Assembly (NCBI RefSeq): GCF_014648275.1
Contig: NZ_BMQU01000002.1
Location: forward strand, 124,001-188,000
DNA: 64,000 nt
Reading direction: 5' to 3'
Source: Pseudomonas laurentiana
GTDB taxonomy: Bacteria; Pseudomonadota; Gammaproteobacteria; Pseudomonadales; Pseudomonadaceae
A program made the position numbers and the translations under genes. How positions within the stretch are numbered: position 1 is the first letter of the stretch; each line of letters begins with the position of its first letter. Below the pieces are notes generated by a model, which searched no databases, was not told the origin of the DNA, and saw only the letters and a list, made by a program, of their open reading frames with translations. Shown here piece by piece: positions 9,651 to 29,156 of the stretch.

Positions 9651-10075
9651 GTGACCTCTCTGAGTGAGCAGATTTTTTAGTCTCAGCAAGCGGATCGCCA
9701 TGCGCCAATGCGGGAAAGCGACGTTGCCAGCCCCACCGCAGAGAGGGAAATCTCGATCGGGAAAGGTTGTTGAGATGGAGGTATTCAAATACCTCGGCAC
9801 CGCCGATGAATCTCGCATTTGCGCCGAATAGGAAGAGAGTAATCATCTGTGACTGATCAGGGAACATCCCCTGTAGCGCCAAGGCTAAGCGTGTCGTTAA
9901 GAAGCATATTCAAGACGTTCTTATGGGTTGATTGGCTTTACCGATCACGATAGTTGGGACGGGGCGAGAACGCTGATCGCAATCTCAGCGCTCTCGAAGC
10001 CCGTCGGTTCAACGCGTCTTGCCAAGCCAGCGAAGGTAACTGACAGCCGCCTCGCAGCGCAGGACCAGCCCGCGG
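9651..10075. other. Intergenic region, no gene seen
   Basis: 425 bp between two leftward units. It has an inverted repeat at 9965-9996 (12-bp arms with one mismatch, 8-nt loop) about 80 bp past the acyl-CoA ligase stop, which may end operon 1. The rest should hold the promoter of the GlxA-like regulator. No convincing open frame. Confidence 0.5.
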
Positions 10076-11719: not shown

Positions 11720-11730
11720 CTCAGTGCCCT

Positions 11731-13509
11731 TCACAGTTGATCGGCGTCGAGCAGGAACAGGCTGGCACTGCCGGCTTTGACGGTGGCGCTGAGCGACTGG
11801 ATGCGTGGCAACAGACGCTCGAAATAGAACCGCGCCGTACCCAGTTTGCTGACGTAGAACCCTGATTGCTGTTCTTGCCCCAGGGCGACATCGGCCATTT
11901 GCGCCCACATGTAGGCGTACAGCGTGTAGCCGAACACATGCAGGTACTCCACCGCCGCCGCACCGATTTCCTGCGCGTTACCTTGCGCACGGTCCAGTAC
12001 CCAGGCGGTCAGTTCGTCCAGGTTCGCGACTGCGCCCAGGAGCGGCACGCTGAACTCGCCACGCGAGGGGTCGAGGGATTCGGCGAATGCCTTGATTTGC
12101 GCAGAAAGCAAGGCGTAAGTGCGGCCACCGTCGGCGACCAGTTTACGGCCCACCAGGTCCATGGCCTGAATGCCATTGGTGCCTTCGTAGATCTGTGTGA
12201 TACGGCAATCGCGAATCAACTGCTCCTGGCCCCATTCGCGAATGTAACCGTGGCCGCCAAACACCTGTTGGCCGTGGACGGTGGTTTCCAGGCCCATGTC
12301 GGTCAGGAACGCCTTGGCCACTGGCGTCAACAACGCCACTTGTGCCTCGGCACGGCTGCGCTCGGCAGGGTCTTGGCTGTACTTGGCCAGGTCCAGTTGC
12401 AGCGCAACATAAGTGGAAAACGCCCGCCCGCCTTCGTTCAGGGCTTTCATGGTCAGCAGCATGCGCCGCACGTCCGGGTGCACGATGATCGGGTCGGCAG
12501 GCTGGTCGGCTGCCGCCGGGCCCGTCGCGGAGCGGCTTTGCAGGCGCTCGCGGGCATATTCAGTGGCGTTCTGGTAAGAACGCTCGCCCAAGGCCAGGCC
12601 CTGGATGCCGACGCCCAGGCGTTCGTAGTTCATCATGGTGAACATGGCGTTCAGCCCCTTGTTCAGGTCGCCAACCAGATAGCCGACAGCGCCATCGAAG
12701 TTCATCACGCAGGTGGCCGAAGCCTTGATGCCCATCTTGTGTTCGATCGACCCACAACTGAGCGCATTGGCCTCAGCCAGTGAGCCGTCCGCCTCGACCA
12801 GCACCTTGGGCACCAGGAACAGCGAGATACCCTTGGCGCCTTGCGGCGCATCCGGCAGCTTGGCCAGCACCAGGTGGATGATGTTTTCCGTAAGGTCCTG
12901 CTCGCCACCGGTGATGAAGATCTTGGTGCCGCTGATACGGTAGCTGCCATCGACCTGCGGCTCAGCGCGGGTGCGGATCAGACCGAGGTCGGTGCCGGCA
13001 TGGGGTTCGGTCAGGCACATCGAACCGCTCCAGCGCCCTTCGTACATGGCCGGCAGGTACTGGGCTTTGAGCGCTTCGCTGGCATGATTGAGCAGCGACA
13101 GGCAGGCGCCGGCGGTCAGCATCGGGTACAGGCCAAAGGACAGGTTGGCAGCGTTGAGCATTTCCTCGACCTGGGCACCCATCACTTTGGGCATGCCCAT
13201 GCCACCATATTCCACCGCACCCGCCACACCCACCCAGCCATCCTCGGCATAGCGGCGATAGGCTTCGGCGAAGCCGTCCGGTGTGCTGACCCGTCCCTCT
13301 TCCCAGCGACAGCCCTGCTCGTCGCCGCTGCGGTTTAGCGGCGCCACCACCTGGGCGATGAGCTTGCCGGCCTGTTCGAGAATCGCCTTGGCGGTGTCGG
13401 CATCGACCTGCTCAGCCAACGCGGGAATCCTTGACCAGATGGCCGGAATGTCGAAGACCTCATTGAACAGAAAATCCATATCGCGCAAAGGTGGAAGGTA
13501 ATCAGACAT
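11731..13509 (-). CDS. Acyl-CoA dehydrogenase with C-terminal broad-range domain
   Basis: 592-residue FAD enzyme that introduces the alpha,beta double bond in an acyl-CoA. Family segments are MCLTEPHAGTDLG (FAD/substrate), GTKIFITGGEQDLTENI, NYERLGVGIQGL and the C-terminal FGGHGYIREWGQEQLIRD. IYEGTNGIQAMDL contains the position of the usual catalytic glutamate. The length near 600, with about 120 residues after the canonical domain, matches the long Pseudomonas enzymes for fatty acyl-CoAs. It overlaps the transporter gene upstream by 8 nt and is 11 bp before the ligase gene, so the three are surely co-expressed. Confidence 0.92.
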   Translation of the reverse strand: MSDYLPPLRDMDFLFNEVFDIPAIWSRIPALAEQVDADTAKAILEQAGKLIAQVVAPLNRSGDEQGCRWEEGRVSTPDGFAEAYRRYAEDGWVGVAGAVEYGGMGMPKVMGAQVEEMLNAANLSFGLYPMLTAGACLSLLNHASEALKAQYLPAMYEGRWSGSMCLTEPHAGTDLGLIRTRAEPQVDGSYRISGTKIFITGGEQDLTENIIHLVLAKLPDAPQGAKGISLFLVPKVLVEADGSLAEANALSCGSIEHKMGIKASATCVMNFDGAVGYLVGDLNKGLNAMFTMMNYERLGVGIQGLALGERSYQNATEYARERLQSRSATGPAAADQPADPIIVHPDVRRMLLTMKALNEGGRAFSTYVALQLDLAKYSQDPAERSRAEAQVALLTPVAKAFLTDMGLETTVHGQQVFGGHGYIREWGQEQLIRDCRITQIYEGTNGIQAMDLVGRKLVADGGRTYALLSAQIKAFAESLDPSRGEFSVPLLGAVANLDELTAWVLDRAQGNAQEIGAAAVEYLHVFGYTLYAYMWAQMADVALGQEQQSGFYVSKLGTARFYFERLLPRIQSLSATVKAGSASLFLLDADQL

Positions 13510-16006: not shown

Positions 16007-17074
16007 TTATTCAACGGCGAGTGTGCGTACGCCACGCTCACCCACCAGCACCAACTCGGTCGCGGCATCGAATGCCGCCGCGCTTATCGGCGTGCGTGCC
16101 GTTTGCCGGACCTGGGCGAAACTGGCACCGTCGTCGCGGCTGAGCAGCACATGCCCGGCCTGGCTCAACAGCCACAGCTGTCCGGCGCGGTCCAGGCTGG
16201 CTGCGGTGATGCTATTGGCGAGGCCGGTGCTCACCGGCTGCCAATGCTGGCCGCCATCGGTGCTGCGCAGCACATGACCACGCAGGCCATAGACCAAGAG
16301 CACCCCCGGCTTGCCGACGGCGCCAAAGAACGTACCGTTGTAAGGCGTGACCAGCCGGGTGAAGCGCTGGCCATCGGCGTCAAGTTTGAGCAGCAAACCC
16401 TGTTCCCCGGTGATGTACAGCGCGCCGTCGACGCTGGCCAGGCTGGTCAGGTGCAGGCCTTGCGGGTTGTCGCTACGCTCCAGCCACGGCGTCCAGTGCT
16501 GCCCGCCGTCGCGGGTGTGCAGCAGCAGGTTGAAGACGCCGACAGCGAAGCCGTTTTGCTCGTCAGCGAACCAGACATCCAGAAACGGTTTGTCGGCGCC
16601 TTCTTGCACCAGCCGTTCAGCTTCCGCGATCAGCGCTGGCCAACGTTCGTCCTCCGGTGCGGCCTGAGCCTGGGCACGGTAGTAGGCCAGCACCTGTTCG
16701 CCCAGCACGCGCCCGTCCAGTTGTTTTTGCCAGCTCACACCGCCATCGCGGCTGTGCAAGATCACGCCGTCATTACCCACTGCCCAGCCCTGCTCGGCGC
16801 TGGGGAAACTCACGGCATTGAGGTCGGCACTGGCTGGCACGCTGGCCTGCTGCCAATGGCCGCCGTTGTCATCGGAATACAGAATGTGCCCACGCGGGCC
16901 GACAGCCACCAGATGCGCGCCGACGTTGGTGACATCACGCAACGGACTGACCGTTGCCAAGGCGCTGGGCATGGCCGGCAGATCCAGCACATCCAGGTAA
17001 GATGCGGCCTGTGCCGCCCCTTGAAGGGCGGTCCACGTCAGCATCAACGCGGTACAGCGCTTGAGAAAATACAT
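16007..17074 (-). CDS. YCF48-type beta-propeller protein, exported
   Basis: 355 residues with an N-terminal signal peptide (MYFLKRCTALMLTWTALQGAAQA). It then has repeated BNR/Asp-box units such as YSDDNGGHW, HSRDGGVSW, HTRDGGQHW, RSTDGGQHW and LSRDDGASF, which form a six- or seven-bladed propeller related to photosystem assembly factor YCF48. GGAGGAG precedes the ATG. It sits 30 bp before the RND gene and 98 bp after the DUF1329 gene. YCF48-like proteins recur beside RND/DUF1302/DUF1329 genes in Pseudomonas. A periplasmic chaperone or scaffold role for the transport complex is inference. Confidence 0.85.
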   Translation of the reverse strand: MYFLKRCTALMLTWTALQGAAQAASYLDVLDLPAMPSALATVSPLRDVTNVGAHLVAVGPRGHILYSDDNGGHWQQASVPASADLNAVSFPSAEQGWAVGNDGVILHSRDGGVSWQKQLDGRVLGEQVLAYYRAQAQAAPEDERWPALIAEAERLVQEGADKPFLDVWFADEQNGFAVGVFNLLLHTRDGGQHWTPWLERSDNPQGLHLTSLASVDGALYITGEQGLLLKLDADGQRFTRLVTPYNGTFFGAVGKPGVLLVYGLRGHVLRSTDGGQHWQPVSTGLANSITAASLDRAGQLWLLSQAGHVLLSRDDGASFAQVRQTARTPISAAAFDAATELVLVGERGVRTLAVE

Positions 17075-17172
17075 ACCGGCTCCTCCGGATCGCCGCTGCA
17101 CGCAGCAGGCTGCTCAACAAACAATCCGGCACCCAGGTGCGATGCCGGAGCGTACCTACCTTGCGGGCGGGC

Positions 17173-18531
17173 TCAGCGAATGCCGGCGCCAGCCAGGGAC
17201 TCGGGCGACCACTGGGTCTTGGACAGCGGCTCGATGTAGCGAATGCCCCCGTAAGCACCGACCACGCCATTGAGGTTGTAGGTGCCGCCGATCAGGTCGT
17301 AGATCATGAAGGGCGTAGCGTCCGGGGTCTGTTTGTCATAGCTCTGGCTGAGGAAGGCGAACGAGCCACGGTATAGCTGACCACGGGCGTCATACTGATC
17401 GGAGGCCAAAGCGATCCAGCTGTCCTCATCGAGGTAGAAGCGGCGCTTGTGGTAGATGTGGCGAGCACCGTCCTTGAGCTTGCCCTCGACGACCCACACG
17501 CGATGCTTTTCCCACCGCACGAACTGCGGCGCCAGATGATTGGGGGTGATGAGCTGCTTGATGTCGGTGCTGTAGGTGAGCTTGTAGGTGTTGTAGGGCA
17601 CATACATTTCCTGTTTGCCCACCAGGGTCCAGTCGTAACGGTCCAGGGCGCCATTGAAGACAAACACGTCATCATAGGTACCCGAGCCCGAGGTACCGGG
17701 GTTGGGCGTGTCGTAGGCCAGGTTCGGCGCGAGCTTCACCCGGCGCTGCCCCGGCAGGTACTGCCAGGCGCTACGTGGCTGCACCAACGGGTTGGCGGCG
17801 TCGCGCAGCATCATCGCTTCGCCGGCACGCCGGGCGGGCGCGGTGTACACCAGCTTCATCTGGTAGTAGGTGTCTTTGGCACCGATGGTTTTGCTCATGT
17901 CCTCGTAGATCGGGTAGCTGATGTTGGCTTGACCTGTGGTCGACAGGGTTGGCACACCCGCGGAATCGACGTTCCAGGAGTCGTACTTGGCCGCCATGCT
18001 CACGCCCTGATAGCGCAGGAGGAAGTTCCACATGGCCTCGGCACCGCTCTGCGGGATCGGAAACGGAATCCCCGGCAGCACATTTTGAACGGCCGATCCG
18101 CCTTCCTGGCTGTGCGCGCCAACGGCATTTTTCGCCGTGTTGTCCAGTACAGACTGAGGCAGCGCGACGGTGCGATGGGTCGGATAGACATCAACCGAAA
18201 AGGTCGGAAAGCGCTTGAGCAGCTCCTGGGTGGTAGCCGTCAGTTGGCCTTTGTACTGATCAGCATTCTTGCCATTGATGACCAGCAGCGGCTTTTCGTC
18301 GGCAAACGGGTCGGGGCGCATGCTGTCGCCGTTCTTGAAGCCCGCCGGTGGGGTGACCAGCCCGCCCTGATAGGCGGGAATGGAGCCGTCGGCATTGGCG
18401 GCGCTTTCCGCGCCGATACGGGTCAGGCTGGTGCCAAGGCGGGCTGCCTGGTCACTGGATACAGCGGCCTGGGCGGACTGGATAGCTGCCAGCGACAAAC
18501 AGGTGGCCAACAGGGTGTGCATGTAGTTCAT
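17173..18531 (-). CDS. DUF1329 domain-containing protein, exported
   Basis: 452 residues with a signal peptide (MNYMHTLLATCLSLAAIQSAQA). The mature body is typical of DUF1329: IPAYQGGLVTPPAGFKNGD, GIPFPIPQSGAEAMWN, RRVKLAPNLAYDTPNP, KHRVWVVEGKLKDGARH and RRFYLDEDSWIALASDQYD. The fold is LolB/LppX-like, suggesting periplasmic binding of a hydrophobic ligand. It is 41 bp after the DUF1302 gene, its usual partner. An ATG three codons later would also serve. Function in family: implicated in hydrophobic substrate handling, but the ligand is unknown. Confidence 0.88.
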   Translation of the reverse strand: MNYMHTLLATCLSLAAIQSAQAAVSSDQAARLGTSLTRIGAESAANADGSIPAYQGGLVTPPAGFKNGDSMRPDPFADEKPLLVINGKNADQYKGQLTATTQELLKRFPTFSVDVYPTHRTVALPQSVLDNTAKNAVGAHSQEGGSAVQNVLPGIPFPIPQSGAEAMWNFLLRYQGVSMAAKYDSWNVDSAGVPTLSTTGQANISYPIYEDMSKTIGAKDTYYQMKLVYTAPARRAGEAMMLRDAANPLVQPRSAWQYLPGQRRVKLAPNLAYDTPNPGTSGSGTYDDVFVFNGALDRYDWTLVGKQEMYVPYNTYKLTYSTDIKQLITPNHLAPQFVRWEKHRVWVVEGKLKDGARHIYHKRRFYLDEDSWIALASDQYDARGQLYRGSFAFLSQSYDKQTPDATPFMIYDLIGGTYNLNGVVGAYGGIRYIEPLSKTQWSPESLAGAGIR

Positions 18532-18572
18532 GGTTATGGTTTTCCTGCGTGATGTCTGAAGGAAGACGCAAC

Positions 18573-20528
18573 TCAAAAAGTGGTTTTGACGGTCAGGTAC
18601 AGCGCGCCACGGTCCTCAGTGGTGGCGCCGCCACCGGAGAAGGAGGCATAGCCTGCGCCGTAGCAGGTGTAATCCTGCTCGCGGTCCAGGGCATTGGGCG
18701 TCGTGCCATCGGTCTGGCCGTTGTTGCACGACTGCGACTTGCCGAAGCTGTCGACGTACTTGAGGTCGACGAAATACTGGTTGTAAACCGCGGCGCTGAC
18801 GCCCACCGCGTAGTTGCCGGTGTCCTCGGCGCCGCCGCCCTGCACCGGCGAGACGCCATCGAGACCGACGTTGACCGAAAGCGGCATGCTCAGGTCGACA
18901 CCGGGCATGACCTGGTACCAGGTTGGGGTGAAGTTGACGGCAATGCCCCAGTTGTCACGGGTCGGTTTGTCGATCCCGCGGTAGCTGCTCTTGCCCTTGT
19001 ACAAGGCCTCGTTGTGGCCATCGAGCTTGAGCAAGTTGCTGTAGAACAGCTCGCCCAACAGGGTCGCGCTATCGAACAGCGGCGTATCGGCGATGGTCAT
19101 CAGGCCGTTGAGGGTCCAGTGCAGTGTCTGGCCGGTGGCACTCAGACCATCACCATCACTGGGCACGTCGTAGACCACGCCACTGCTGGGCAGGCGCGGT
19201 GGCAACAGGCCGAAGCCACCGCCCAGCCCGCCTTGGCCCGGCGCACTGACGATGGCCGGAATGCTCGCCAACGGCATGTGGTGGCGAATGTTCAGGTCGC
19301 TGCCGACACTGATGCCGGCCACGTCTTTGGACAGACTCAGGCCATAGATATCGATGTTATCGGCATAGGCAAACTGGTAAGTGGCGCTTTGCAGCGAATT
19401 GTAAAGGTTGCCGACCGCGCCCTGAGGACCGGCAGGTGGATTGCCGAACGGGCCACGGGACACTGTCAGGCCACGGGTATCCAGCCAGGCTTGCGGAAGG
19501 ATTTCCGAGGTTTTGCGGTAGTAGAAGCCCAAAGTACCGCCCAGCCATTCAGGCGACCACTTGGCCATCACGCCCCAGTCGCCGCGCTTGTCCGGGGTCA
19601 GGTCGTGACCACGGCGGATGCTGGTCAGCGCACCGCGCACCGGGATCAGCCCGGGCGTGCCGGTATGGCCCAGGAGGAAACTGTGAGCACCCTCACCCAC
19701 CACATCGGAGCCGCCATAATAGGTGCCCGCTTCCGGCAACCGGGCGGCATCCCAATCGAAGAAGTACTGCGCGCCGAGGGTCAGTTCCGGGTTCACCAGA
19801 AACGACGTCGACAGCTGATTGCGGGGTACGAACAGCTCCTTGGCCTCTGTACCAGGCGACGCCGCCAGCTTGGCCAGGTCCAGACCGGACTGACCATAGC
19901 TGAGCGAGTGCACCGGATTGAGCAAGGTCTCGCCCCAGAACAGGTTGTGCTGGCCCAGTTTGCCGCTCAGTTGCGAACTCTCGCCAACCTCAGTACTCAT
20001 GAACACAAACGCATCGAGCACTTCGCCAGACGGGCCGCTGTAGTAACGTTGGGCATAGTTGCTCAGGTGCGGGCTACCCAACGGGGTGCCGGTACCAGGC
20101 AAACCATTGAGGCTCGGGTTGATGCCGGAACTGTTGCCATTGCCGTTGACGAACGGGTTGGAGTTGGAACCGGTGTTGTCGTAAGCCTTGTCATACCAAC
20201 TGGCAGCACTGACACGAAAGCCCATGTTGCCCTGGTAGATCACGTCCAGCTCGGTCAGCAGGTCGACACGGTTGGTGATGTTGGTACCGGCCTTGCGGAA
20301 GTTGTAATCGCCGTCGTTGTTGTTCGGCGTCGCCAGCATGCGCTTGTCGGCGTTTTCGGTGCGTACGCCGTAGTTGTACTTGACGGTATTGTCCAGGCGC
20401 ACGGCCCAGTCTTCGTTACCGGTATCGACTTCGAACGCCTGAGCGCCAGGCAGCGCGAGCAAACTGATGGCACAGACCAGCAGACGGCGCTGCGACGGCA
20501 CAGCGCAATGAGTGCGGTGTTTTGGCAT
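18573..20528 (-). CDS. DUF1302 domain-containing outer-membrane protein
   Basis: 651 residues with a signal peptide (core VCAISLLALPGAQA). The rest is a strand-rich, glycine/asparagine-rich body ending in aromatic TVKTTF, as expected for a beta-barrel inserted by BAM. DUF1302 landmarks are the early WAVRLDNTVKYNYGVR, the central GKLGQHNLFWGETLL and the late NWGIAVNFTPTWYQV. It pairs with DUF1329 downstream. I take it as an outer-membrane channel or binding protein for the hydrophobic substrate of operon 1. GGAGTC lies upstream of the ATG at 20528. The open frame extends 25 codons further with no ribosome site. Confidence 0.88.
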   Translation of the reverse strand: MPKHRTHCAVPSQRRLLVCAISLLALPGAQAFEVDTGNEDWAVRLDNTVKYNYGVRTENADKRMLATPNNNDGDYNFRKAGTNITNRVDLLTELDVIYQGNMGFRVSAASWYDKAYDNTGSNSNPFVNGNGNSSGINPSLNGLPGTGTPLGSPHLSNYAQRYYSGPSGEVLDAFVFMSTEVGESSQLSGKLGQHNLFWGETLLNPVHSLSYGQSGLDLAKLAASPGTEAKELFVPRNQLSTSFLVNPELTLGAQYFFDWDAARLPEAGTYYGGSDVVGEGAHSFLLGHTGTPGLIPVRGALTSIRRGHDLTPDKRGDWGVMAKWSPEWLGGTLGFYYRKTSEILPQAWLDTRGLTVSRGPFGNPPAGPQGAVGNLYNSLQSATYQFAYADNIDIYGLSLSKDVAGISVGSDLNIRHHMPLASIPAIVSAPGQGGLGGGFGLLPPRLPSSGVVYDVPSDGDGLSATGQTLHWTLNGLMTIADTPLFDSATLLGELFYSNLLKLDGHNEALYKGKSSYRGIDKPTRDNWGIAVNFTPTWYQVMPGVDLSMPLSVNVGLDGVSPVQGGGAEDTGNYAVGVSAAVYNQYFVDLKYVDSFGKSQSCNNGQTDGTTPNALDREQDYTCYGAGYASFSGGGATTEDRGALYLTVKTTF

Positions 20529-20615
20529 TGCGATGACTCCACGTATTGTTATTTTTGTTATCGCCGCCCGACTTGTGCGGGCGTTGGTCAAGCGTCCATG
20601 CATTACTGCAGGGTT

Positions 20616-21182
20616 TTAACAGTCGAGGATCTGAATGAAGGTTTCGGCCTGAGGCCAGGGACCGAACCCGGCAGCCGGGTTCAAATGACCGACCGCGCCC
20701 AGCAATTCCAGGTCGCTGCCCCAGCCTTCGGCCATGGCGGTAACTGCCTCGAGGCTGGCCAGGTGATCGTTGCTGCTGGCGGCAACAATGCTGGGGAACG
20801 GCAATGGCGTGATCGGCAGCGGCGCCCAGCCGTTGGCGCGCAGGGTGTCCGGCCGTGGGTAAGCTGCAGGCCATTGAGCGTTCAGGTCAGGTGGCGCCGC
20901 GAGCAACGCGCCTTTGATCGGCCGGTCATAGCGTGCAGCCCAATGGGCGACCATCAATACACCGGCACTGTGCGCCACCAGCACAACGTCGCCGTCGATC
21001 TGTTCCAGTTCGCGCTGGATCGCTTCGACCCGGGCGTTGCAGTCCAGGCCGTTGACCTGCAGTGGTGGTACCGCGCGGACATTGGCCAGGCGCGCCTGGA
21101 GCAGGGTCTGCCAATGCTCGGCGACATGGTCGCGCAGGCCAGGGACAATCAGGACGGTAGCGGCGGTATGCAATCTTTCCAT
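20616..21182 (-). CDS. Alpha/beta hydrolase of the RBBP9/YdeN family
   Basis: 188-residue serine hydrolase and first gene of operon 1. The N-terminal TVLIVPGLRDHVAEHWQTLL is the family signature. The nucleophile serine lies in VAHSAGVL, the acid in ASSNDHLAS and the histidine in GAVGHLNPAAGFGPW. In a fatty-acid-like operon it might free an acid from an ester or thioester. The start chosen is the ATG at 21182 (GCATAGGTGCC upstream). Its promoter lies at 21241-21304 and carries the operator shared with operon 2. Confidence 0.85.
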   Translation of the reverse strand: MERLHTAATVLIVPGLRDHVAEHWQTLLQARLANVRAVPPLQVNGLDCNARVEAIQRELEQIDGDVVLVAHSAGVLMVAHWAARYDRPIKGALLAAPPDLNAQWPAAYPRPDTLRANGWAPLPITPLPFPSIVAASSNDHLASLEAVTAMAEGWGSDLELLGAVGHLNPAAGFGPWPQAETFIQILDC

Positions 21183-21240
21183 GTCGGCACCTATGCTCAA
21201 GGCAGTCAGCTCGGCAAGTCAGTCGAGCGCTTCGAGACTC

Positions 21241-21304
21241 ACAGTAATCACCCCTCCCCCTGGGTGCTTTACATTGAACGTCAGTGACTTCACATTTGAT
21301 GACA
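21241..21304 (-). promoter_or_regulatory. Operon 1 promoter with tandem AraC-type operator
   Basis: Plus-strand coordinates: strong half CACATTTGATGACA at 21291-21304, weaker half TACATTGAACGTCA at 21270-21283 (9 of 14 equal, same orientation, 21-bp phase). The 8-mer GGGTGCTT follows at 21262-21269, and the complement of TACTGT, a -10-like hexamer, is at 21241-21246. The same order and exact spacing recur upstream of operon 2 (28997-29060). Two direct repeats phased by two helical turns next to the -35 region are typical of AraC-family activators. Confidence 0.7.
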
Positions 21305-21374
21305 CGGGCACCGGCAGGCGTCCGCTACGACTGAGCAGTGGACCGTGTGCTCAGGTTGAGGAGCGGAAATCGGC

Positions 21375-21403
21375 TTTTCATTTGATGACACTCAGGCTAT
21401 AAA
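21375..21403 (+). promoter_or_regulatory. araC-type gene promoter with a single operator box
   Basis: TTTTCA (21375-21380), a 17-bp spacer and TATAAA (21398-21403). The box TTCATTTGATGACA (21377-21390), identical to the strong half upstream of operon 2, covers the -35 region. Autorepression is the natural reading. I see only a poor second half next to it. Confidence 0.6.
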
Positions 21404-21443
21404 AAGCGACCCGCCGCAGAAGCGGGGCACCTAATGAGAATGC

Positions 21444-22469
21444 GTGGAAAACAATAAAATGACCGCCCTCGTCCGTGCTGCAAGCTTGACCAATTACCTC
21501 GAAGTGTCGCGCCATGTGGGGTTGAACCCTCATGCCTTGCTGGCTCAGGTCGGTCTGAGTGCCGCGCTGCTGGATGATCCCAACCAACGTATTGCCGTCT
21601 CGAGCGTGATCACCCTGCTGGAGGAGTCGGCGCGGGTCAGTGGCTGTGAAACCTTCGGCTTGCGTATGGCCGAATTGCGTCAGTTATCGGACTTTGGCGA
21701 GATCAGCCTGCTGCTCAGTCATCAGCGCACGCTGCGTGATGCCTTGCAGGTCATCGTGCAGTACCGGCATTTGCTCAATGACGCGCTGGCGATCCATATC
21801 GAAGACGCTGGCAAGACGGTGATCATTCGTGAAGAAGTGGTCAGCGACCTGCCGCGCGGCAGTCGTCAGGCCACGGAGCTTGCGATCGGGGTCATGCGTC
21901 GCCTGTGTGCGGCTGTATTGGGGGCGCACTGGCACCCGATCAGTGCCAACTTCACCCACAGCACTCCGGCTGACCTTGCGATTCATCGGCGGGTTCTTGG
22001 CTGCAAACTGGTGTTCGGCAGTGAGTTCAATGGCATCGTCTGCCCTGCTGCCGACCTGGATGCGGCCAATCCGCTGGCCAATGAGGCCATGGCACGGCTG
22101 GCCCAGCGTTATCTGGATACGCTGCAGGCCGGGGGCAAGTTGTCGCTGGAGCTGGAGATGCGCAAGACCATTTATTTGTTGTTGCCTATGGGACGGGCCA
22201 CTATCGAGCAAGTGGCGCAGACTCAGGGGATGAATGTGCGTACCTTGCAGCGGCGGCTCGAAGAGTGTGGCGCGACGTTCAGCGATTTGATCAATGGGGT
22301 GCGACGGGATCTGGTGATTCGCTATCTGGAGAATCCCAGTTACTCGTTGGGGCGTATTGCGGATATGTTGGGTTACTCGATGCCCAGTTCGTTCACTCGC
22401 TGGTTTATTGCGCAGTTCGGGATGCCACCGGCTGCGTGGCGGGTGCAGTATGGGGTTCAGCAGCGTTGA
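21444..22469 (+). CDS. AraC-family regulator with arabinose-binding-like N-domain (OruR/ArgR-like type)
   Basis: 341 residues. The first 200 form the 'Arabinose_bd' type sensor (LVRAASLTNYLEVSRHVGLNP, FGLRMAELRQLSDFGEISLL). Residues about 235-335 form the AraC DNA-binding domain, with two helix-turn-helices (TIEQVAQTQGMNVRTLQRRL and LGRIADMLGYSMPSSFTRWF). The frame starts at a GTG (21444); an ATG five codons later is equally likely, and neither has a strong ribosome site. It is divergent from operon 1, and its predicted box also occurs in front of operon 2. It is therefore the likely activator of both operons. The inducer should be the substrate or an intermediate. Confidence 0.9.
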   Translation: MENNKMTALVRAASLTNYLEVSRHVGLNPHALLAQVGLSAALLDDPNQRIAVSSVITLLEESARVSGCETFGLRMAELRQLSDFGEISLLLSHQRTLRDALQVIVQYRHLLNDALAIHIEDAGKTVIIREEVVSDLPRGSRQATELAIGVMRRLCAAVLGAHWHPISANFTHSTPADLAIHRRVLGCKLVFGSEFNGIVCPAADLDAANPLANEAMARLAQRYLDTLQAGGKLSLELEMRKTIYLLLPMGRATIEQVAQTQGMNVRTLQRRLEECGATFSDLINGVRRDLVIRYLENPSYSLGRIADMLGYSMPSSFTRWFIAQFGMPPAAWRVQYGVQQR

Positions 22470-22579
22470 GGCTTGGGGCGTTGACGGTTGGGGCTTGATG
22501 GTTGTGAGCATACCCGTTTGCGGCGGCGCTTAATCACCCTTGGCAAATGGATATGCCCCCAAATCCGAGGGCCTGCCCC

Positions 22580-23590
22580 TTACAACCCCCAATGCATCAA
22601 TGCCAACACCAGCAGCACCAGAAACACTGTCTCCCCCACCATCAACGCAATGGGCTTGAACCCAACCTTGGCCAGTTCCTTGAGCTGCGTCTTCATCCCC
22701 AGGGCACTGATCGCCACCACCAGACACCAGCGCGACAGATCATTAACCCCACCCTGGACCACAGCAGGCACCCACCCCGTACTGTTCAAACAGGCCAGCA
22801 ACACAAACCCCACCGCAAACCAGGGCAACAGTGGCGGCCGCTGTCCAGAGGCATCATCCCCCGCCCGCCGGGTAATCATCGCCGCACAGACAATCACCGG
22901 CAGCAACATTGCCACCCGCATCAGCTTGACCACCGTGGCAATGTCCCCCGTCTCGGTGGACATGCTATACCCCGCCCCCACCACCTGCGCCACATCATGA
23001 ATAGTGGCGCCGAGGAACACCCCGGCTTGCGGTGGTGACAGCTGCAACCCATCAGCAATCATCGGATAGAGGATCATCGCCAGGGTCGACAGCGCCGAAA
23101 CGCCGATCACCGTGAACAGCGTCGCATGCTCCTTCTGCCGGTGCGCAGGCAACGCCGCAGCCAGCGCCAACGCCGCCGACGCCCCACAGATCGCCGTCGC
23201 GCCGCCCGTCAGCATGCCAAACAGCCGATTGAACCCCATGGCCTTGGCCACCACCATCGACACACCAATGGTCACCACCACAATAATGACCACCAGCACC
23301 ACCGGCTTCCAGCCAAGGCTGGCAATCTGCTCCAGAGTAATACGCATGCCCAGCAGCGCCACCCCGACACGCAGCACCGTGCGTGCGGTGAATTCAATCC
23401 CGGCCTTGCAGCTGCCGTCGGCAGAGAGAAAGTTCAACGCCATGCCCAGCAACAGGGCAAATAACATCACCGGCGCATCGTAATGCTCACTGAGAAAACT
23501 CGCCGCACCTGCCGCGATCAGGCTCACGACAAAACCAGGCGATAGCGCTCGCACCCGGTTGTTAACGGCGGCAATTGCCATGGTGCTCAT
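22580..23590 (-). CDS. YeiH-family putative sulfate/anion exporter
   Basis: 336-residue integral membrane protein of UPF0324/YeiH with about 10 helices. Family segments are ALLLGMALNFLS, GVALLGMRITLEQIASLGW, GGATAICGASAALALAAALP, GVFLGATIHDVAQVVGAGY and the C-terminal ALGMKTQLKELAKVGFKPI. Members are annotated as putative sulfate exporters; proof is thin. It is the last gene of operon 2 and overlaps the Rieske gene by 4 nt. If the annotation holds, it hints that inorganic sulfate or sulfite is released by the pathway. Convergent with the AraC-type gene, 110 bp away. Confidence 0.85.
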   Translation of the reverse strand: MSTMAIAAVNNRVRALSPGFVVSLIAAGAASFLSEHYDAPVMLFALLLGMALNFLSADGSCKAGIEFTARTVLRVGVALLGMRITLEQIASLGWKPVVLVVIIVVVTIGVSMVVAKAMGFNRLFGMLTGGATAICGASAALALAAALPAHRQKEHATLFTVIGVSALSTLAMILYPMIADGLQLSPPQAGVFLGATIHDVAQVVGAGYSMSTETGDIATVVKLMRVAMLLPVIVCAAMITRRAGDDASGQRPPLLPWFAVGFVLLACLNSTGWVPAVVQGGVNDLSRWCLVVAISALGMKTQLKELAKVGFKPIALMVGETVFLVLLVLALMHWGL

Positions 23591-23913
23591 TGGACGGACT
23601 CCTCGGACTCGATCACGATAAACAGCTCCTCGCCCTGACGCTCAACCGGGTAACGGGCAACCTTGAGCTGGGTGGAATTGAGCAGATAACCACTGGCCAG
23701 GTCGAAGCGCAGGCCATGCGCGCAACACTGAATCACCCGCCCTTCCAGGCGCCCGGCACACAAAGACGCGCCCTGATGCGGGCAGCTGTCGTCGATGGCA
23801 TAAAACTGGTCGGCGACATTGAACAGTGCCAGGCTCTTGTTCTCGAAGGTCAGCAGCACACGGCTGCCGCGAGCCGGCACCTTGGCCAGCGGCACGGGGT
23901 ATCGATAACTCAT
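23587..23913 (-). CDS. Small Rieske [2Fe-2S] protein
   Basis: 108-residue soluble Rieske ferredoxin. The cluster ligands are seen in CPHQGASL and CCAHGLRFD (C-x-H ... C-x-x-H), the normal spacing for bis-Cys bis-His ligation. It lacks an oxygenase catalytic domain, so it is an electron carrier for a partner enzyme or a NirD-like accessory subunit. It overlaps both neighbours by 4 nt (FrnE-like upstream, YeiH downstream), so it is translated with them. No Rieske oxygenase is encoded in the window, so its partner is unclear; the TauD-type dioxygenase does not normally need a ferredoxin. Confidence 0.9.
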   Translation of the reverse strand: MSYRYPVPLAKVPARGSRVLLTFENKSLALFNVADQFYAIDDSCPHQGASLCAGRLEGRVIQCCAHGLRFDLASGYLLNSTQLKVARYPVERQGEELFIVIESEESVQ

Positions 23914-24563
23914 GCCAGTGCCACCGGGTCCAGTGCTTCACGCATGACGTCGAGTAGCACCTCGGCAGGATGAGCGCCGCTCACCACCCGCTGTCGGTTG
24001 AACCGAAAACAAGGCACACCCTCGCTTGCAGAGTCGTTGGCGCCGAGAAATGGGCTGGCATCACCACGCAGGCAATCAGCGACCTGTGCAGGACTCAAGC
24101 CACAGTCCTGGGCGATACGTAACAGGGTGATCGGATCGCCCAAGTCCTTGCCTTGCTGAAAGTAGGCCGCAAACAAGTTCGCCAGCAAGGCTTCGGCCTC
24201 TGCCGACTTGCCCAATGCCACAGCGCGTTGCAGCAAGCGATGGGCGTCGGCGGTATTGGGCATACGACTGATACGGGAAAAATCAATGCTTACACCAGCG
24301 GCGTCAGCGACCGCACGCACCTGAGCCTGACGCTGACGCACCGCATCCTCGCTGCCCAAACGCTTGCGGTAGAACGCCTCGAACGGCTGCCCTGTCCTGG
24401 CCATATCCGGCAGCAATTGCACCCCCCACCAGCGCAGGTTGACCTCAACTTCAGGCTGCTCAAGACGCAACTGTTCAAGCGCACGCTGCAGATGGCGCTG
24501 GCCGATCAGGCACCAGGGACAGATGAAGTCGAAAAATACGTCAATGGATAACGTTTGTTTCAC
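23910..24563 (-). CDS. DsbA-family oxidoreductase, FrnE-like
   Basis: 217-residue thioredoxin-fold protein with CPWC at 15-18 in FFDFICPWCLIG and a cis-proline region near GVPCFRFNR. No signal peptide, so cytoplasmic. The family covers FrnE disulfide oxidoreductases and 2-hydroxychromene-2-carboxylate isomerases; an intact CxxC favours a thiol redox or glutathione-related role. It begins with GTG inside the GTGA overlap with the MFS stop and ends in a 4-nt overlap with the Rieske gene. Confidence 0.88.
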   Translation of the reverse strand: MKQTLSIDVFFDFICPWCLIGQRHLQRALEQLRLEQPEVEVNLRWWGVQLLPDMARTGQPFEAFYRKRLGSEDAVRQRQAQVRAVADAAGVSIDFSRISRMPNTADAHRLLQRAVALGKSAEAEALLANLFAAYFQQGKDLGDPITLLRIAQDCGLSPAQVADCLRGDASPFLGANDSASEGVPCFRFNRQRVVSGAHPAEVLLDVMREALDPVALA

Positions 24564-25879
24564 GGTTTTACCTCTTGAATTCGACCCGCGTCAGGTACTG
24601 GTTGCACCTGCCCTTCCAGGCGAGCCATGTCGCTGTGGTAGTGACGCTTGCCAATAAAGAACACCGCCGCTGCGCCGATGCTGATCAGCGGCACACACTG
24701 GAACGCGGCATGCAGGCCGATGAAATCGGAAACCCGGCCGGTAATCAGCGGCCCGGTCGCCAGGCCCAACAGGTTGTTGAACAGGGTCAGGGTGGCGAAG
24801 GCGGTGCCATGCACCGAATGATGGGTCAGGTTGGCGACCATGGCGCTGGACGGCCCGTTGGTGCCGACGGCAATCATCATGCCCAGGCAGATCAGCACCA
24901 ATTGCACAGTGCCCGAGGGCAGCGCAAAAGCCACCGACAACAGCAGGCAACTACCCAGGCAATAACCGATCGCCAGGCTGATTTTACGGTCCGGGCGCTG
25001 ACGCCCCAGGCGGTCGCAGAGCATCGCGCAGAGGATCGTGCCGATGCCGCTGCACAACACGATAATCGCGGCGACGACTCCCGCCTGGTCGGTGCCCATG
25101 GCGTAGTAGCGGTTCAGGTAGCTGGGCATCCACACGATCACAGTGCCACCCACGAACAATTGCAGGCCGCTGGCAACATAAGCAGCGATTACCGAACGGC
25201 TGCTATATAAGGTACGCAACGGGCGGGTTACCTTGCAGGGTGCCATCGAGCGCGGCGGCGAGATCCTCGCCTCTTTGACCAGCAGTGGATACAACAACGC
25301 CAGCATCAGGCCAAAAAGCGCCATGCCAGCAAATGCCCAGCGCCAGCCCAGATGCTGGGCCATTACCCCACCCAGGGCCATGCCCAGCACCGAGCCGAAC
25401 ATGCCACCGGCCATGAAGGCACCGGCCAAGGTTGCGCGCATGTCGCGTGGAAAAACCGCGACCACCACGGCGATGCCGACGCTGCCATAAGCGGCTTCGC
25501 CAACACCCACCAGAAAACGGGCGATAAACATCTGCGGGTAATTTTCCGCGAGGGCGCAACCCAGGGTTGCCAGGCTCCAGAGCACTGCCATCAGCACCAG
25601 GCTTTTGACCCGGCCAAAGCGGTCGGCCAGCAGCGAAAGCGGAAAGGTCAGCAGCCCGACCATCAGCGCAACGATGCCGCTGAGCAGGCCGAGCTGGCTG
25701 TCGCTCAGCGCCCATTCACTCTTGAGCAGGGGGAATACCGCGTTGAGCACCTGGCGCGACATGTAGTCGGAAATCAGCAGGCCAAAGGTCAAGGCGAAGA
25801 CAATCCAGGCATAACGCCGTGGAATGCCACGTGAAGTGTCGGCACCATCATCTGCGGCGCTGGCGATATAAGCGGCCAT
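24560..25879 (-). CDS. MFS transporter
   Basis: 439-residue inner-membrane carrier with about 12 helices and the MFS motif between helices 2 and 3 (LLADRFGRVKSLVLM), echoed in the second half (LCDRLGRQRPDRK). Family position is near the metabolite:H+ symporters used for aromatic or organic acids. The start at 25879 follows GAGGAGG; the longer open frame upstream is not supported by a ribosome site. Probably imports the substrate or an intermediate of operon 2. It lies 109 bp after the BKACE gene and overlaps the FrnE-like gene by 4 nt. Confidence 0.88.
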   Translation of the reverse strand: MAAYIASAADDGADTSRGIPRRYAWIVFALTFGLLISDYMSRQVLNAVFPLLKSEWALSDSQLGLLSGIVALMVGLLTFPLSLLADRFGRVKSLVLMAVLWSLATLGCALAENYPQMFIARFLVGVGEAAYGSVGIAVVVAVFPRDMRATLAGAFMAGGMFGSVLGMALGGVMAQHLGWRWAFAGMALFGLMLALLYPLLVKEARISPPRSMAPCKVTRPLRTLYSSRSVIAAYVASGLQLFVGGTVIVWMPSYLNRYYAMGTDQAGVVAAIIVLCSGIGTILCAMLCDRLGRQRPDRKISLAIGYCLGSCLLLSVAFALPSGTVQLVLICLGMMIAVGTNGPSSAMVANLTHHSVHGTAFATLTLFNNLLGLATGPLITGRVSDFIGLHAAFQCVPLISIGAAAVFFIGKRHYHSDMARLEGQVQPVPDAGRIQEVKP

Positions 25880-25988
25880 GCTGCCTCCTCTGTTGTCTGG
25901 CGTAAGTCTTGTTGTTATCAAAAGCCTGACTAACAGCGCTGTGGGCTGGAGTGGGTCGGCACTGCCGTCACAGGCCGACCCTGTCCGG

Positions 25989-27041
25989 TCAGCCGCGCTG
26001 TGGCACACCCTTATGGCCCGGCAGGCGATTGGGCGCCATTCCGTTGGCGTTGAGTGTTTCTTCGATACTGCTGTACTGCTGGCCGATGCGGTAAATGGCA
26101 CGGGCTTCTTTGCCGTTGGCAATCTCGCGTCCCAGTTCATGGGCAACCCGCACGGTCTGCTGGATCTGCTGCACCGAGGTGAAGCGCTTGCCGTGGTGAT
26201 CGATGATGGTGTCTTCGTTGCCGCAACGTGGATGCAAGCCCATGGCCAGCGCCATGGTGTTGAACGGCAGCACGTTCTTGAGCAGCGATTCTGCAGTCAA
26301 GGTGCAGCCATCCGGCGCGCGGTGAATGAAGTTGAAGAAGTTGAACGGGTTGGGGCCGTCGAAGCCGCCACCGATACCGATCCAGGTCAGGTTCAGCGGC
26401 CCCATGTAATCGCCGCGGCGCACGATGCGCTCAAGGGTTTCCAGAGCATGCATGCCCGTCAGCTGGAAGTGCGGCTGGATGTTACTCGCCTGCAGGCGGC
26501 GCAGATGTTCGCGGACCCAGGCAGGCCCGGCCGGTACGGTCATTTCACTGTAGGCGGCCTGAATCGCCGGGTTGGCCAGGGAGGTGCCTTCCAGGTACTC
26601 CGGATACAGCAACTCCATGATGTTCATTTGCGTGGTGTTGATCGCCACGGTCACCTGGTCAGGCTTGGGCGTGAGCTCAGCGAGCATGTGGCGGGTATCG
26701 TCAGACAGCCATTTGGCCGCTTCGCCATCGTTTTCAGGGGCGAAGGAAATCGAACCGCCTACCTGGATAATCATGTCCGGCACGGCTTCGCGCACGCCGG
26801 CGATCAGTTCGTTGAATTTGGACAGGCGTTTGGAGCCTTTGCCATCGAGTTCACGCACATGCAGGTGAAGCACGGTGGCGCCCGCTTCATAGCAGTCAAC
26901 CGCCTTCTGGACCTGCTCATCCATGGTCAGCGGAATGTCTTCGGGAAAGTCCTCAGGCATCCATTCCGGGCCATAAGGGGCGACGGTGATCACCACCTTT
27001 TCCATGTTTTCCGGGTGCAACGAATCGTCGAAGAATTGCAT
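25989..27041 (-). CDS. BKACE family beta-keto acid cleavage enzyme (DUF849)
   Basis: 350-residue zinc enzyme of the 3-keto-5-aminohexanoate cleavage family. Members condense a beta-keto acid with acetyl-CoA and release acetoacetate plus a new acyl-CoA. Zinc ligands H59 and H61 lie in ATVLHLHVRE. The glycine-rich WIGIGGGFDGPNPF and the later GLHPRCGNEDTI carry further ligands and the CoA region. A good GAGGACG ribosome site precedes the ATG at 27041, although MEKVVITVAP 12 codons in is where most relatives begin. It is preceded by a TauD-type dioxygenase gene and followed by a transporter gene, so it may cleave the keto acid the pathway produces. Substrate cannot be assigned. Confidence 0.88.
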   Translation of the reverse strand: MQFFDDSLHPENMEKVVITVAPYGPEWMPEDFPEDIPLTMDEQVQKAVDCYEAGATVLHLHVRELDGKGSKRLSKFNELIAGVREAVPDMIIQVGGSISFAPENDGEAAKWLSDDTRHMLAELTPKPDQVTVAINTTQMNIMELLYPEYLEGTSLANPAIQAAYSEMTVPAGPAWVREHLRRLQASNIQPHFQLTGMHALETLERIVRRGDYMGPLNLTWIGIGGGFDGPNPFNFFNFIHRAPDGCTLTAESLLKNVLPFNTMALAMGLHPRCGNEDTIIDHHGKRFTSVQQIQQTVRVAHELGREIANGKEARAIYRIGQQYSSIEETLNANGMAPNRLPGHKGVPQRG

Positions 27042-27099
27042 GCTGTCGTCCTCGGTCTTGTTATTGTCTTGTGCCCGCTGTGCAGCGGATGGCTAATGC

Positions 27100-27948
27100 T
27101 CAGAAAGTACGGTCGCCCTTGATCCCGGCACGCTCCATCTTGCGATGGCAGGCCGGGTAATCCATGACCGCGTAGTGCTGGGTGCTGCGGTTATCCCAAA
27201 TAGCGATGCTGTTGGGCTTCCAGCGCCAGCGCACCTGGTATTCGGGCAGGTACGCCTGGCTGATCAGATAGCGCAGCAGATCGCCTGCCCCCGGGTTGGC
27301 GTCCTGGCCAAAACGCACCCGCTGTGGGGTGTGGTAGTTGGTGAAGTGAGTGGTAAAGGCGTTGACGAACAGCACCTGCTCCCCGGTTTCCGGGTGGGTG
27401 CGTACCACCGGGTGCTCGGCGTCGGGGAACTGGGCTTTGAGCGCCAGGCGTTTTTCCATCGGCATCGCCGCGCCAAAGCTGGCTTCGATGCTATGCCGGG
27501 CGCGCAGGCCTTCGATCTTCCGCTTCACCTCATCCGGCAGGTTCTGGTAGGCCAGCACCATGTTCGCCCACTGGGTGTCACCGCCTACCGGGGGGCACTC
27601 CACACAGCGCAGCACGCACCCCATGGGTGGCGCTTCGCGCCAGGTGGCATCGGTATGCCAGGCATTCTCGTAGCGGTCGGCGGGTTGGTCCGGGCGCTTG
27701 TAGATCTGCACCAGCCCCGGGTGCTCCGGGTCGCTGCCTGCTACAGGGTGGTCCTCCAGCTCACCGAATCGCCGGGCGAAGGCCACGTGCTCGGCGCGGC
27801 TGATGTCCTGGTTACGCAAGAACAGCACCCGGTGTTTGAGTAATTGCGCACGGAGCTGGTCGAACAGGTCGTCATCGTGCACCGCATCTGCCAGGTTAAC
27901 CCCGGACACCTCAGCGCCGATGGCGCAGGTCAATTGTTCGATGTGCAT
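27100..27948 (-). CDS. TauD/TfdA-family Fe(II)/2-oxoglutarate dioxygenase
   Basis: 282-residue cupin-fold dioxygenase that couples 2-oxoglutarate decarboxylation to hydroxylation of a substrate. The iron ligands are H98 and D100 (AWHTDATW) and H258 (STQHYAVMDY). CPPVGGDTQWANM is the usual 2-oxoglutarate-side segment, and R269 or R273 likely binds its carboxylate. The family includes taurine (TauD), alkylsulfate (AtsK) and phenoxyacid (TfdA) enzymes. The start at 27948 follows GAGGGCTGTAGC and leaves 13 bp to the upstream oxidoreductase gene; the longer frame is spurious. Near a YeiH-type exporter, a C-S or C-O bond cleaving role is attractive but unproven. Confidence 0.9.
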   Translation of the reverse strand: MHIEQLTCAIGAEVSGVNLADAVHDDDLFDQLRAQLLKHRVLFLRNQDISRAEHVAFARRFGELEDHPVAGSDPEHPGLVQIYKRPDQPADRYENAWHTDATWREAPPMGCVLRCVECPPVGGDTQWANMVLAYQNLPDEVKRKIEGLRARHSIEASFGAAMPMEKRLALKAQFPDAEHPVVRTHPETGEQVLFVNAFTTHFTNYHTPQRVRFGQDANPGAGDLLRYLISQAYLPEYQVRWRWKPNSIAIWDNRSTQHYAVMDYPACHRKMERAGIKGDRTF

Positions 27949-27961
27949 GCTACAGCCCTCT

Positions 27962-28942
27962 TCAGATGACGAAGATCGACGAACCGGTAGTTTTGCGTGC
28001 TTCCAGGTCACGGTGCGCCTGGACTGCATCGTGCAGGGCGTAGTGCTGGTTGATTTCAATCTTGATGCGGCCGCTGCTGACGTGATCGAACAGCTCACCG
28101 GCAAGGTCGGCCTTCTCTGCAGGGTCTGCGATATAGTCAGCCAGCGCCGGGCGGGTCAGGTGCAGCGAGCCTTTCATCGCCAGGATCTGTGGATCGAACG
28201 GCGGGATGGTGCCGGAGGCCGTGCCGACGCAGACCATCAGGCCGCGGCGCTTGAGCGCGTCGAGCGAGGCCATGAAGGTGTTCTTGCCGACGCTGTCGAA
28301 CACCACATTGACGCCCAGCCCATCGGTCAGCTCGCGTACGCGCTTGGCCACATCTTCGTGGCTGTAGTTGATGGTGTGGGTGCAGCCATGGGCCTTGGCC
28401 ACTTCTGCCTTGGCCTCGGTGGACACGGTGCCGATCACGTTAATGCCGAGCAGTCGCGCCCACTGCGAAACGATCAGGCCAACCCCCCCGGCGGCAGCGT
28501 GCAACAGGATCGTATCGCCGGGTTTGAAGTCATACAGGCGGCGCATCAGGTAGGCCGAGGTCAGGCCGCGCATGGTCATCGCCGCTGCGGTTTCAAAAGC
28601 GATGGTTTCCGGCAGCTTGATCAGCGCCGCTGCGCCGATCAGACGGTCGGTGCAATAGGCGCCCAGGGTGTTGAGAAAACCGGTGTAGGTCACACGATCA
28701 CCGACCGCCACATTGGTCACGCCCTCGCCGACGGCTTGCACTACCCCGGCCGCTTCCACGCCCATGCCGTTAGGCATCGGAATCGGATAAGTACCGTTAC
28801 GGAAGTAGGTGTCGGCGTAGTTCAGGCCAACCGCAACCTGGCGCAGACGGACGTGCCCCGGGCCGGGCTCGCCGACCTCGGCGTCTTCATAGCGCAATAC
28901 CTCGGGACCACCGGTTTCATAGAAACGTACGACTTTGGCCAT
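27962..28942 (-). CDS. Quinone oxidoreductase, zeta-crystallin/QorA type
   Basis: 326-residue MDR-superfamily NADPH oxidoreductase without catalytic zinc. Markers are the GroES-like N-domain (GLNYADTYFRNGTYP, GVEAAGVVQAVGEGV), the nucleotide motif HAAAGGVGLIVSQWA and the C-terminal GRIKIEINQHYALHDAVQAH. It reduces quinones or enones one or two electrons at a time. First gene of operon 2, with GGAGTG before the ATG at 28942. The promoter with the tandem operator is at 28997-29060. Confidence 0.9.
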   Translation of the reverse strand: MAKVVRFYETGGPEVLRYEDAEVGEPGPGHVRLRQVAVGLNYADTYFRNGTYPIPMPNGMGVEAAGVVQAVGEGVTNVAVGDRVTYTGFLNTLGAYCTDRLIGAAALIKLPETIAFETAAAMTMRGLTSAYLMRRLYDFKPGDTILLHAAAGGVGLIVSQWARLLGINVIGTVSTEAKAEVAKAHGCTHTINYSHEDVAKRVRELTDGLGVNVVFDSVGKNTFMASLDALKRRGLMVCVGTASGTIPPFDPQILAMKGSLHLTRPALADYIADPAEKADLAGELFDHVSSGRIKIEINQHYALHDAVQAHRDLEARKTTGSSIFVI

Positions 28943-28996
28943 GCTTGTCACTCCAATCATCCATTCGGACGCGTTGCGTCTGTTCTTGTTGATTGG

Positions 28997-29060
28997 ACTC
29001 TAAGCGCTACGCGGTGAGGGTGCTTCTCATCGGACGACAAGGTGTTTTCATTTGATGACA
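28997..29060 (-). promoter_or_regulatory. Operon 2 promoter with tandem AraC-type operator
   Basis: Strong half TTCATTTGATGACA at 29047-29060, weaker half CTCATCGGACGACA at 29026-29039 (10 of 14 equal, 21-bp phase). The 8-mer GGGTGCTT follows at 29018-29025, and the complement of TAGAGT, a -10-like hexamer, is at 28997-29002. From the outer edge of the strong half to the -10 the distance is 58 bp, exactly as at operon 1. Confidence 0.7.
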
Positions 29061-29156
29061 CCACGTGCGGAGCTGGTCGCCTGCCATTGACGTGCACCTT
29101 CGGCCAAGCGCTGAATCTCTCGCGTATTACTCTGCTCAATGCCTTTGATCAGCACG

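Follow-up and report, generated by a model that had tools for sequence, protein, structure and literature searches.

Does one regulator control two neighboring gene runs of Pseudomonas laurentiana, and which metabolism would such a regulon serve? The question is raised by a 64-kb stretch of contig NZ_BMQU01000002.1 (hereafter the window, whose numbering is used throughout), in which two runs of minus-strand genes point in the same direction, operon 1 (about 21182 to 10076) and operon 2 (about 28942 to 22580), and a plus-strand AraC-family gene sits between them (referred to here by its first position, 21444). Gene spacing and order suggest that each run is a single transcript. A preliminary description of the window had proposed that the two operons share one AraC-type operator architecture. 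Based on the sequence comparisons reported below, the best reading is that one regulator, predicted to be the 21444 protein, drives both operons and represses itself, and genes linked to the operator suggest that the regulon serves organosulfonate catabolism.

Shared operators at the two promoters

The putative operator upstream of each operon is 39 bp long and consists of two 18-bp direct repeats with a 21-bp period. The preliminary description had placed the same elements in the same order and at this spacing before both operons, and every coordinate was confirmed; its counts for the second, weaker half (9/14 and 10/14 matches) were reproduced, as was the -10-like hexamer TAnnnT (TACTGT and TAGAGT) 58 bp from the outer operator edge. 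Over the full 18 bp, half 1 and half 2 are identical at 12/18 positions in both operators. Repeat 2 overlaps the -35 slot, AAGCAC, by 4 bp (assuming a 17-bp spacer). The promoters thus have a class II AraC-type layout, that is, direct repeats spaced by about 21 bp, the proximal one on the -35, and a fixed distance to the -10. Some details of the preliminary description required revision. The 8-mer GGGTGCTT was rejected as an element of its own: its AAGC closes repeat 2 (4 bp), and the trailing ACCC is found in only 18/75 and 21/57 of the relatives' operon 1 and operon 2 sites (see below). The figure of 85 bp upstream agrees with distances of about 84 and 80 bp, counted from the proximal edge of each operator to the probable ATG (placed by eye at 21182 and 28942).

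The window contains three copies of TGTCATCAAATG, each of them on the minus strand (5' ends at 21304, 21390, and 29060), and ATTTGATGACA has four matches there with ≤1 mismatch, versus 0.65 expected (0/100 shuffles reach four). Across the 5.2-Mb genome, the strong 13-mer TCATTTGATGACA also has four matches (≤1 mismatch), compared with one for the reversed-pattern control. Three of these are the sites reported here, while the fourth near-match, on another contig and within a predicted open reading frame (ORF) of 228 amino acids, was dismissed. The full 39-bp pattern (≤3 mismatches) occurs just twice in the genome, at these two promoters. Moreover, the 64-bp promoter stretches of the two operons are identical at 41 positions, compared with 37 for the best 64-mer match among simulated pairs of the same dinucleotide make-up (n = 2000). 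A sigma-70 consensus scan of positions 20900-29400 listed none of the proposed promoters (2 found, 2.3 expected by chance), as expected if they are activator-dependent, although this lends them no support either.

Conservation in relatives and association with the AraC-family gene

Conservation was assessed in 399 Pseudomonas genomes (G numbers), a sample of a larger group, and in named loci (L numbers) around relatives of the 21444 gene, comprising the best 80 of 205 (77 titled Pseudomonas, 1 Pseudomonadales, and 2 Aeromonas; orientation set by tblastn). The named loci come partly from the same genomes (e.g., L072 = G089), and the two surveys therefore overlap. An orthologue of the 21444 gene (E ≤1e-100, a threshold of our choosing) was found in 79/399 genomes and the 39-bp pattern (≤3 mismatches) in 84/399, with the backwards-read control giving 0 in every row. 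All 79 genomes with the orthologue carry the operator, compared with 5/320 of those without it. These five look like they hold remains of a lost cluster. For example, the AraC gene of G390 persists beside the operators as two overlapping pieces in different frames, G135 has kept a quinone-reductase gene and part of a TauD gene behind the site, and G301 retains pieces of both the quinone-reductase and the ligase gene. The 3 kb around the site yielded no cluster gene in G228 or G108, nor did 13 kb in G228. Both operators of G390 (L152, L157, and L169) still match the pattern with 0 mismatches. Genomes with more AraC paralogues also have more sites (median 4.5 vs 2; 14 and 65 genomes). Weighing against these associations, the Fisher tests on co-occurrence and paralogue counts treat related genomes as independent, and, because the AraC gene and the two operons are linked, their co-occurrence partly reflects co-inheritance.

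A lack of conservation upstream of orthologous operons had been named in advance as a result that would refute the preliminary interpretation, and this result did not materialize. Among named loci having the gene in question, the operator (≤4 mismatches) precedes the serine-hydrolase gene, the first of operon 1, in 75/77 and the quinone-reductase gene, the first of operon 2, in 57/59. The operon 1 misses are the two Aeromonas loci, which have 5-mismatch versions, and the operon 2 misses are L119 and L121. Three of the 80 loci (L114, L119, and L139) have no serine-hydrolase match, and L139 is without any other cluster gene. Throughout the 1.6 Mb of the 80 loci, the pattern has 138, 141, and 145 matches at ≤3, 4, and 5 mismatches, respectively, and the reversed pattern has 0 at ≤5. 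Information per operator column is 1.57 and 1.60 bits, versus 0.15 and 0.16 bits in the 30 bp upstream, and self-identity of the repeat is highest at 21 bp (11.4 and 12.0 of 18 positions; ≤7.7 at other offsets from 17 to 26); both results arise partly by construction, as the sites were found with the pattern itself, and count for less on that account. The -10, on the other hand, lies outside the search pattern. TAnnnT is at +58 in 125/132 sites (operon 1, 69/75; operon 2, 56/57) and at +59 in the remaining 7 (six and one, respectively). Half 2 starts with TGA in 71/75 operon 1 sites and with TGT in 56/57 operon 2 sites, and these separate signatures indicate that neither promoter was recently copied from the other. 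The preliminary description contrasted a strong with a weaker half, but both halves are conserved, and half 2 has its own consensus. In the two Aeromonas loci (L142 and L146), the genes are arranged differently, with a site of 1 or 2 mismatches ahead of the DUF1302 gene; horizontal transfer of the cluster is possible. Their serine-hydrolase gene is preceded by a weaker operator, and homogentisate-type genes lie nearby in L142.

The regulator gene in the window itself has the layout of an autorepressed gene, with a putative operator over its own core promoter: as the preliminary description had it, a strong half covers the predicted -35 (TTTTCA). We scored this half-site in 66/80 loci (9 with a gap of >900 bp and 5 without an operon 1 site were excluded; the cut-off of 8 was our choice). 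The score is ≥8 in 49/66 loci, compared with 2/66 in the wrong orientation. In 42/49, a TATA follows the half-site at exactly 7 bp, while the distance to the start codon ranges from 29 to 168. Such a fixed TATA distance combined with a variable start-codon distance indicates that the half-site belongs to the araC promoter. Two observations speak against autorepression as a general property. There is no TATA behind the half-site in 7/49 good loci (L121-L124, L126, L133, and L135), and 17/66 loci, mostly of the P. fluorescens type, score <8. In 14 of these 17, a TATA still follows the best match at 7 bp, as would be expected had the half-site degenerated where it stood, and this apparent decay suggests that autorepression may not be general. 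Among strains with the regulon, P. capeferrum WCS358 (L112) has a half-site score of 12.2, and the half-site of P. fluorescens FW300-N2E3 (L141) is degraded.

Operators at sorAB and other unlinked genes

The genus survey counted 253 sites, 18 of which (hand-picked, not random) were read with 11-14 kb around them. Eight precede sorAB, three a polyhydroxyalkanoate (PHA)-synthase-like gene, two a DUF1329 paralogue, one a paralogue of the beta-keto acid cleavage enzyme (BKACE) gene, and one an acyl-CoA ligase gene (G288); one precedes the G135 relic, one has nothing recognizable behind it (L185), and L186 received no assignment. Family libraries were run on one SorA and one PHA-synthase-like protein, and two SorB-like proteins were compared with Pfam, the others being named by likeness. 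In the one relative so analyzed (L171), SorA passes its NCBIfam equivalog model NF052245 (658.2 vs 600) and SorB passes NF052246 (111 vs 93). The single regulon of the preliminary description, confined to 10-29 kb, is accordingly too narrow for relatives, in which the operator also precedes the unlinked sorAB and other genes.

A search of the 399 genomes found sorA in 34, and its locus was read in 30 of these. At ≥80% identity (26 loci), the operator precedes sorA in 20/22 genomes with the 21444 orthologue, versus 0/4 without it; four further sorA loci (62-65% identity) had no operator. As sorA lies apart from the cluster, and its orthologues in AraC-free genomes provide a control, no other result speaks as strongly for a regulon that acts in trans. 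The control group is small (n = 4), and one of its members, G316, is 78% complete. The putative operator before the unlinked sorAB sulfite dehydrogenase genes of relatives is new here. Several observations nonetheless weigh against extending the regulon to sulfite: 2/22 genomes have sorA without the operator despite the AraC gene (G015 and, for the copy read, G367), no sorA match (E ≤1e-20) turned up in the genome that contains the window, and the operator-bearing PhaC-like gene does not point to sulfonates.

At the other sites read, the class II PHA-synthase-like gene at L179:6827-8620 lies behind a 3-mismatch operator, and similar ORFs follow such sites in L180 and L181. The acyl-CoA ligase gene of L183 (G288:C29; 76% identity) stands directly behind a 0-mismatch operator. 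This gene and the AraC locus are on different contigs, and an acyl-CoA dehydrogenase gene lies immediately upstream.

Predicted regulator, substrate, and competing explanations

The 21444 protein carries PF12625 (162.3 bits, cut-off 27.6) and HTH_18 (63.3 bits, cut-off 33.6) domains, and its closest solved relative is VirS, which matches nearly the whole protein (E = 1e-30). It falls below the cut-offs of the QhpR (NF049968, 188.8 vs 250 bits) and GliR (NF050186, 122.4 vs 570 bits) models. The target genes of QhpR and VirS differ from those here, and no report on QhpR binding was found in the open-licence literature.

SphR of P. aeruginosa is an AraC-family sphingosine sensor whose target sites are two direct repeats starting with TGNCC and 6-8 bp apart (PMC3900636), to which sphingosine enhances its binding (PMC3900636, PMC5150637). 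As here, the SphR regulon (sphA, sphBCD, and cerN) is small and split into separate transcripts, the regulator gene is divergent from a predicted porin gene, and the direct repeats start with TGNC and have a period of about 21-23 bp (PMC3900636, PMC5150637). It differs in the half-site consensus after TGNC, in its target genes, and in that the inducer of SphR is known. The inducer-enhanced regulator on two repeats that we propose follows this precedent. GliR (PA3027) of P. aeruginosa is likewise AraC-type, with a divergent lipid-metabolism operon and one motif over the -35 (PMC8151288), but its motifs, YYGGCGHTDTYSGMC and GGAYAWCGCCG, are unlike the operator described here. With regard to the target genes, AmeABCD of Castellaniella defragrans (PMC6394551) and PP_0765/PP_0766/PP_2018/PP_2019 of P. 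putida (PMC10866462) include, as in the window, DUF1302, DUF1329, COG4447-type, and RND-type members, which are associated with hydrophobic substrates, but the available parts of these reports do not describe them with this AraC operator or with BKACE or TauD genes. In Betaproteobacteria, a DUF1302/PF07044/COG1033/COG4447 set has been assigned to aromatic-compound regulons, with a possible tolerance function (PMC6449761). Within the open-licence literature, we found no paper on the regulon or its substrate, and a text search for the motif TGTCATCAAAT returned nothing relevant to bacteria by title.

Table 1. Predicted regulatory elements and genes of the two operons (window coordinates)
Feature	Position	Strand	Remarks
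Operon 1 operator	21266..21304	-	18-bp half 1 21304-21287, half 2 21283-21266, 21-bp period
Operon 2 operator	29022..29060	-	half 1 29060-29043, half 2 29039-29022
Predicted -10 of operon 1, TACTGT	21241..21246	-	read 21246-21241; 58 bp from operator start
Predicted -10 of operon 2, TAGAGT	28997..29002	-	read 29002-28997; 58 bp from operator start
AraC/XylS-family regulator	21444..22469	+	PF12625 (Arabinose_bd) + HTH_18
Single half-site TGTCATCAAATGAAAAGC over AraC-gene core promoter	21373..21390	-	covers predicted -35 + 10 bp of spacer
Predicted AraC-gene promoter	-35 TTTTCA 21375-21380, -10 TATAAA 21398-21403	+	
Operon 1 gene 1: RBBP9-type serine hydrolase (PF06821)	20616..21200	-	likely ATG 21182
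Operon 1: DUF1302 outer-membrane-type protein	18573..20603	-	
Operon 1: DUF1329/LolA-like periplasmic-type protein	17173..18576	-	
Operon 1: YCF48/BNR-repeat protein	16007..17101	-	
Operon 1: MMPL-type RND transporter	13502..15976	-	
Operon 1: acyl-CoA dehydrogenase with PF12806 C-terminus	11731..13509	-	
Operon 1: acyl-CoA ligase	10076..11908	-	homology from residue 77
Operon 2 gene 1: NADPH:quinone-reductase-like MDR enzyme	27962..28960	-	likely ATG 28942
Operon 2: TauD-family Fe(II)/2-oxoglutarate dioxygenase	27100..28104	-	homology from residue 53
Operon 2: beta-keto acid cleavage enzyme (BKACE, PF05853)	25989..27041	-	
Operon 2: MFS transporter	24560..26146	-	ORF start probably too far upstream
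Operon 2: DsbA-like thioredoxin-fold protein	23910..24563	-	
Operon 2: Rieske ferredoxin	23587..23913	-	
Operon 2: YeiH-type carrier (PF03601)	22580..23590	-	under TIGR00698 cut-off

The genes and elements concerned are listed in Table 1. As the homology of the acyl-CoA ligase begins only where indicated there, its true start is probably near 11.7 kb. A thymidylate-kinase-like P-loop gene (29157-29765) lies upstream of operon 2, and a similar-looking ORF (L186:7662-8279) is found 543 bp behind an operator match in a relative, which may be a coincidence.

The sequence comparisons show the operators, how far they are conserved, that they go with the AraC gene, and that sorAB belongs to the set in relatives; which protein binds, whether it activates or represses, its inducer, and the metabolic route are inferred. 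The 21444 protein would act as a local activator of both minus-strand operons. Its inducer, probably hydrophobic, would bind the PF12625 domain, and the regulator would occupy the two 18-bp direct repeats, which at a spacing of 21 bp lie on the same face of the DNA. As the proximal repeat overlaps a weak -35 by 4 bp, the protein would replace the -35 contact (class II activation). At the lone half-site across the araC -35 and spacer, bound protein would exclude RNA polymerase and thereby limit its own synthesis. We consider this regulator-operator part of the explanation highly probable.

The operator-linked sorAB genes of relatives, together with the TauD-type enzyme and the YeiH-type carrier, suggest sulfite release and hence organosulfonate catabolism. 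A hydrophobic compound would be imported via the DUF1302/DUF1329/YCF48/RND route and activated and oxidized by the serine hydrolase, acyl-CoA ligase, and acyl-CoA dehydrogenase; the TauD-type dioxygenase would remove the sulfonate, and the sulfite would be exported by the YeiH-type carrier or, in relatives, oxidized by SorAB. The TauD-type protein shares its family with E. coli TauD (E = 4e-55), and H70 and R270 are kept in the alignment, while the position of Y73 is an alanine. In E. coli TauD, H70 and R270 are sulfonate-binding residues, and Y73 contacts the amine of taurine. Against this route, the TauD-type protein fails the taurine dioxygenase model (PRK09553, NF007104; 253 vs 313 bits), though it passes Pfam TauD (224.1 bits), and the carrier fails the YeiH model TIGR00698 (162 vs 232.6 bits), though it passes PF03601 (247.4 bits). 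Owing to these failed cut-offs, the names taurine dioxygenase and YeiH, like QhpR and GliR above, denote likenesses only. In addition, no enoyl-CoA hydratase or hydroxyacyl-CoA dehydrogenase was recognized among the scanned proteins, leaving the route incomplete. A Pfam analysis of seven Aeromonas flank ORFs (ligase, homogentisate-pathway-type, pseudouridine-synthase, HAD, and CoA-transferase genes) revealed no alternative desulfonating enzyme. Overall, we lean slightly toward the whole explanation, sulfonate included. A more specific version, which we regard as unlikely, is an undescribed route for a beta-sulfonated hydrophobic carboxylic acid: the TauD-type enzyme would introduce a keto group by oxidizing the C-S carbon, which yields sulfite and a beta-keto acid, and the neighboring BKACE would convert the latter with acetyl-CoA to acetoacetate and an acyl-CoA. 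One AraC protein sensing a lipid-like substrate would co-control uptake, cleavage, and distant sulfite oxidation.

It is quite conceivable, if short of probable, that regulator and operators are as described but that the substrate is a hydrophobic carbon source free of sulfonate (a terpenoid, lipid, or surfactant ester), with the TauD-type protein serving simply as a hydroxylase or cleaving an ether. The two reports on related transport sets tie DUF1302/DUF1329/YCF48-like/RND proteins to monoterpenes in Castellaniella (PMC6394551) and to Tween 20 in P. putida (PMC10866462), and both the operator on the class II PHA-synthase-like gene of relatives and the lack of a sorA match in the window's own genome agree with such a substrate. 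However, the operator before sorA in 20/22 AraC-bearing genomes read and the YeiH-type gene in operon 2 favor sulfite release.

The remaining alternatives concern the regulation itself. Another regulator could read the operators, such as the GbdR-like AraC/DJ-1 protein encoded at 8616-9818, which adjoins the cluster beside the end of operon 1. This candidate was rejected: its orthologue (E ≤1e-100) was found in 7/50 genomes tried of the 399 and does not track the operator (6/30 operator genomes, 1/20 without), whereas the 21444-type AraC gene occurs, at the same threshold, in 79/84 operator-bearing genomes, and a half-site also lies on the promoter of the 21444 gene itself. We thus consider a different reader very improbable. 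Still harder to credit is that the shared elements reflect recent promoter duplication or chance without common regulation. The presence of only two full copies in the genome fits this idea, but each promoter keeps its own half-2 signature in relatives, the upstream flanks have diverged, and 0/2000 simulated pairs reach 41/64 identical positions.

Taken as a regulon of the 21444 protein, the locus supplies a predicted operator, a regulator, and testable targets for this gene set; roughly one in five of the sampled Pseudomonas genomes carries the regulator gene. The unlinked sorAB genes of relatives would connect DUF1302/DUF1329-type hydrophobic transport with sulfite release, and owing to this tie the substrate could be searched for with an operator-reporter strain rather than by guessing.

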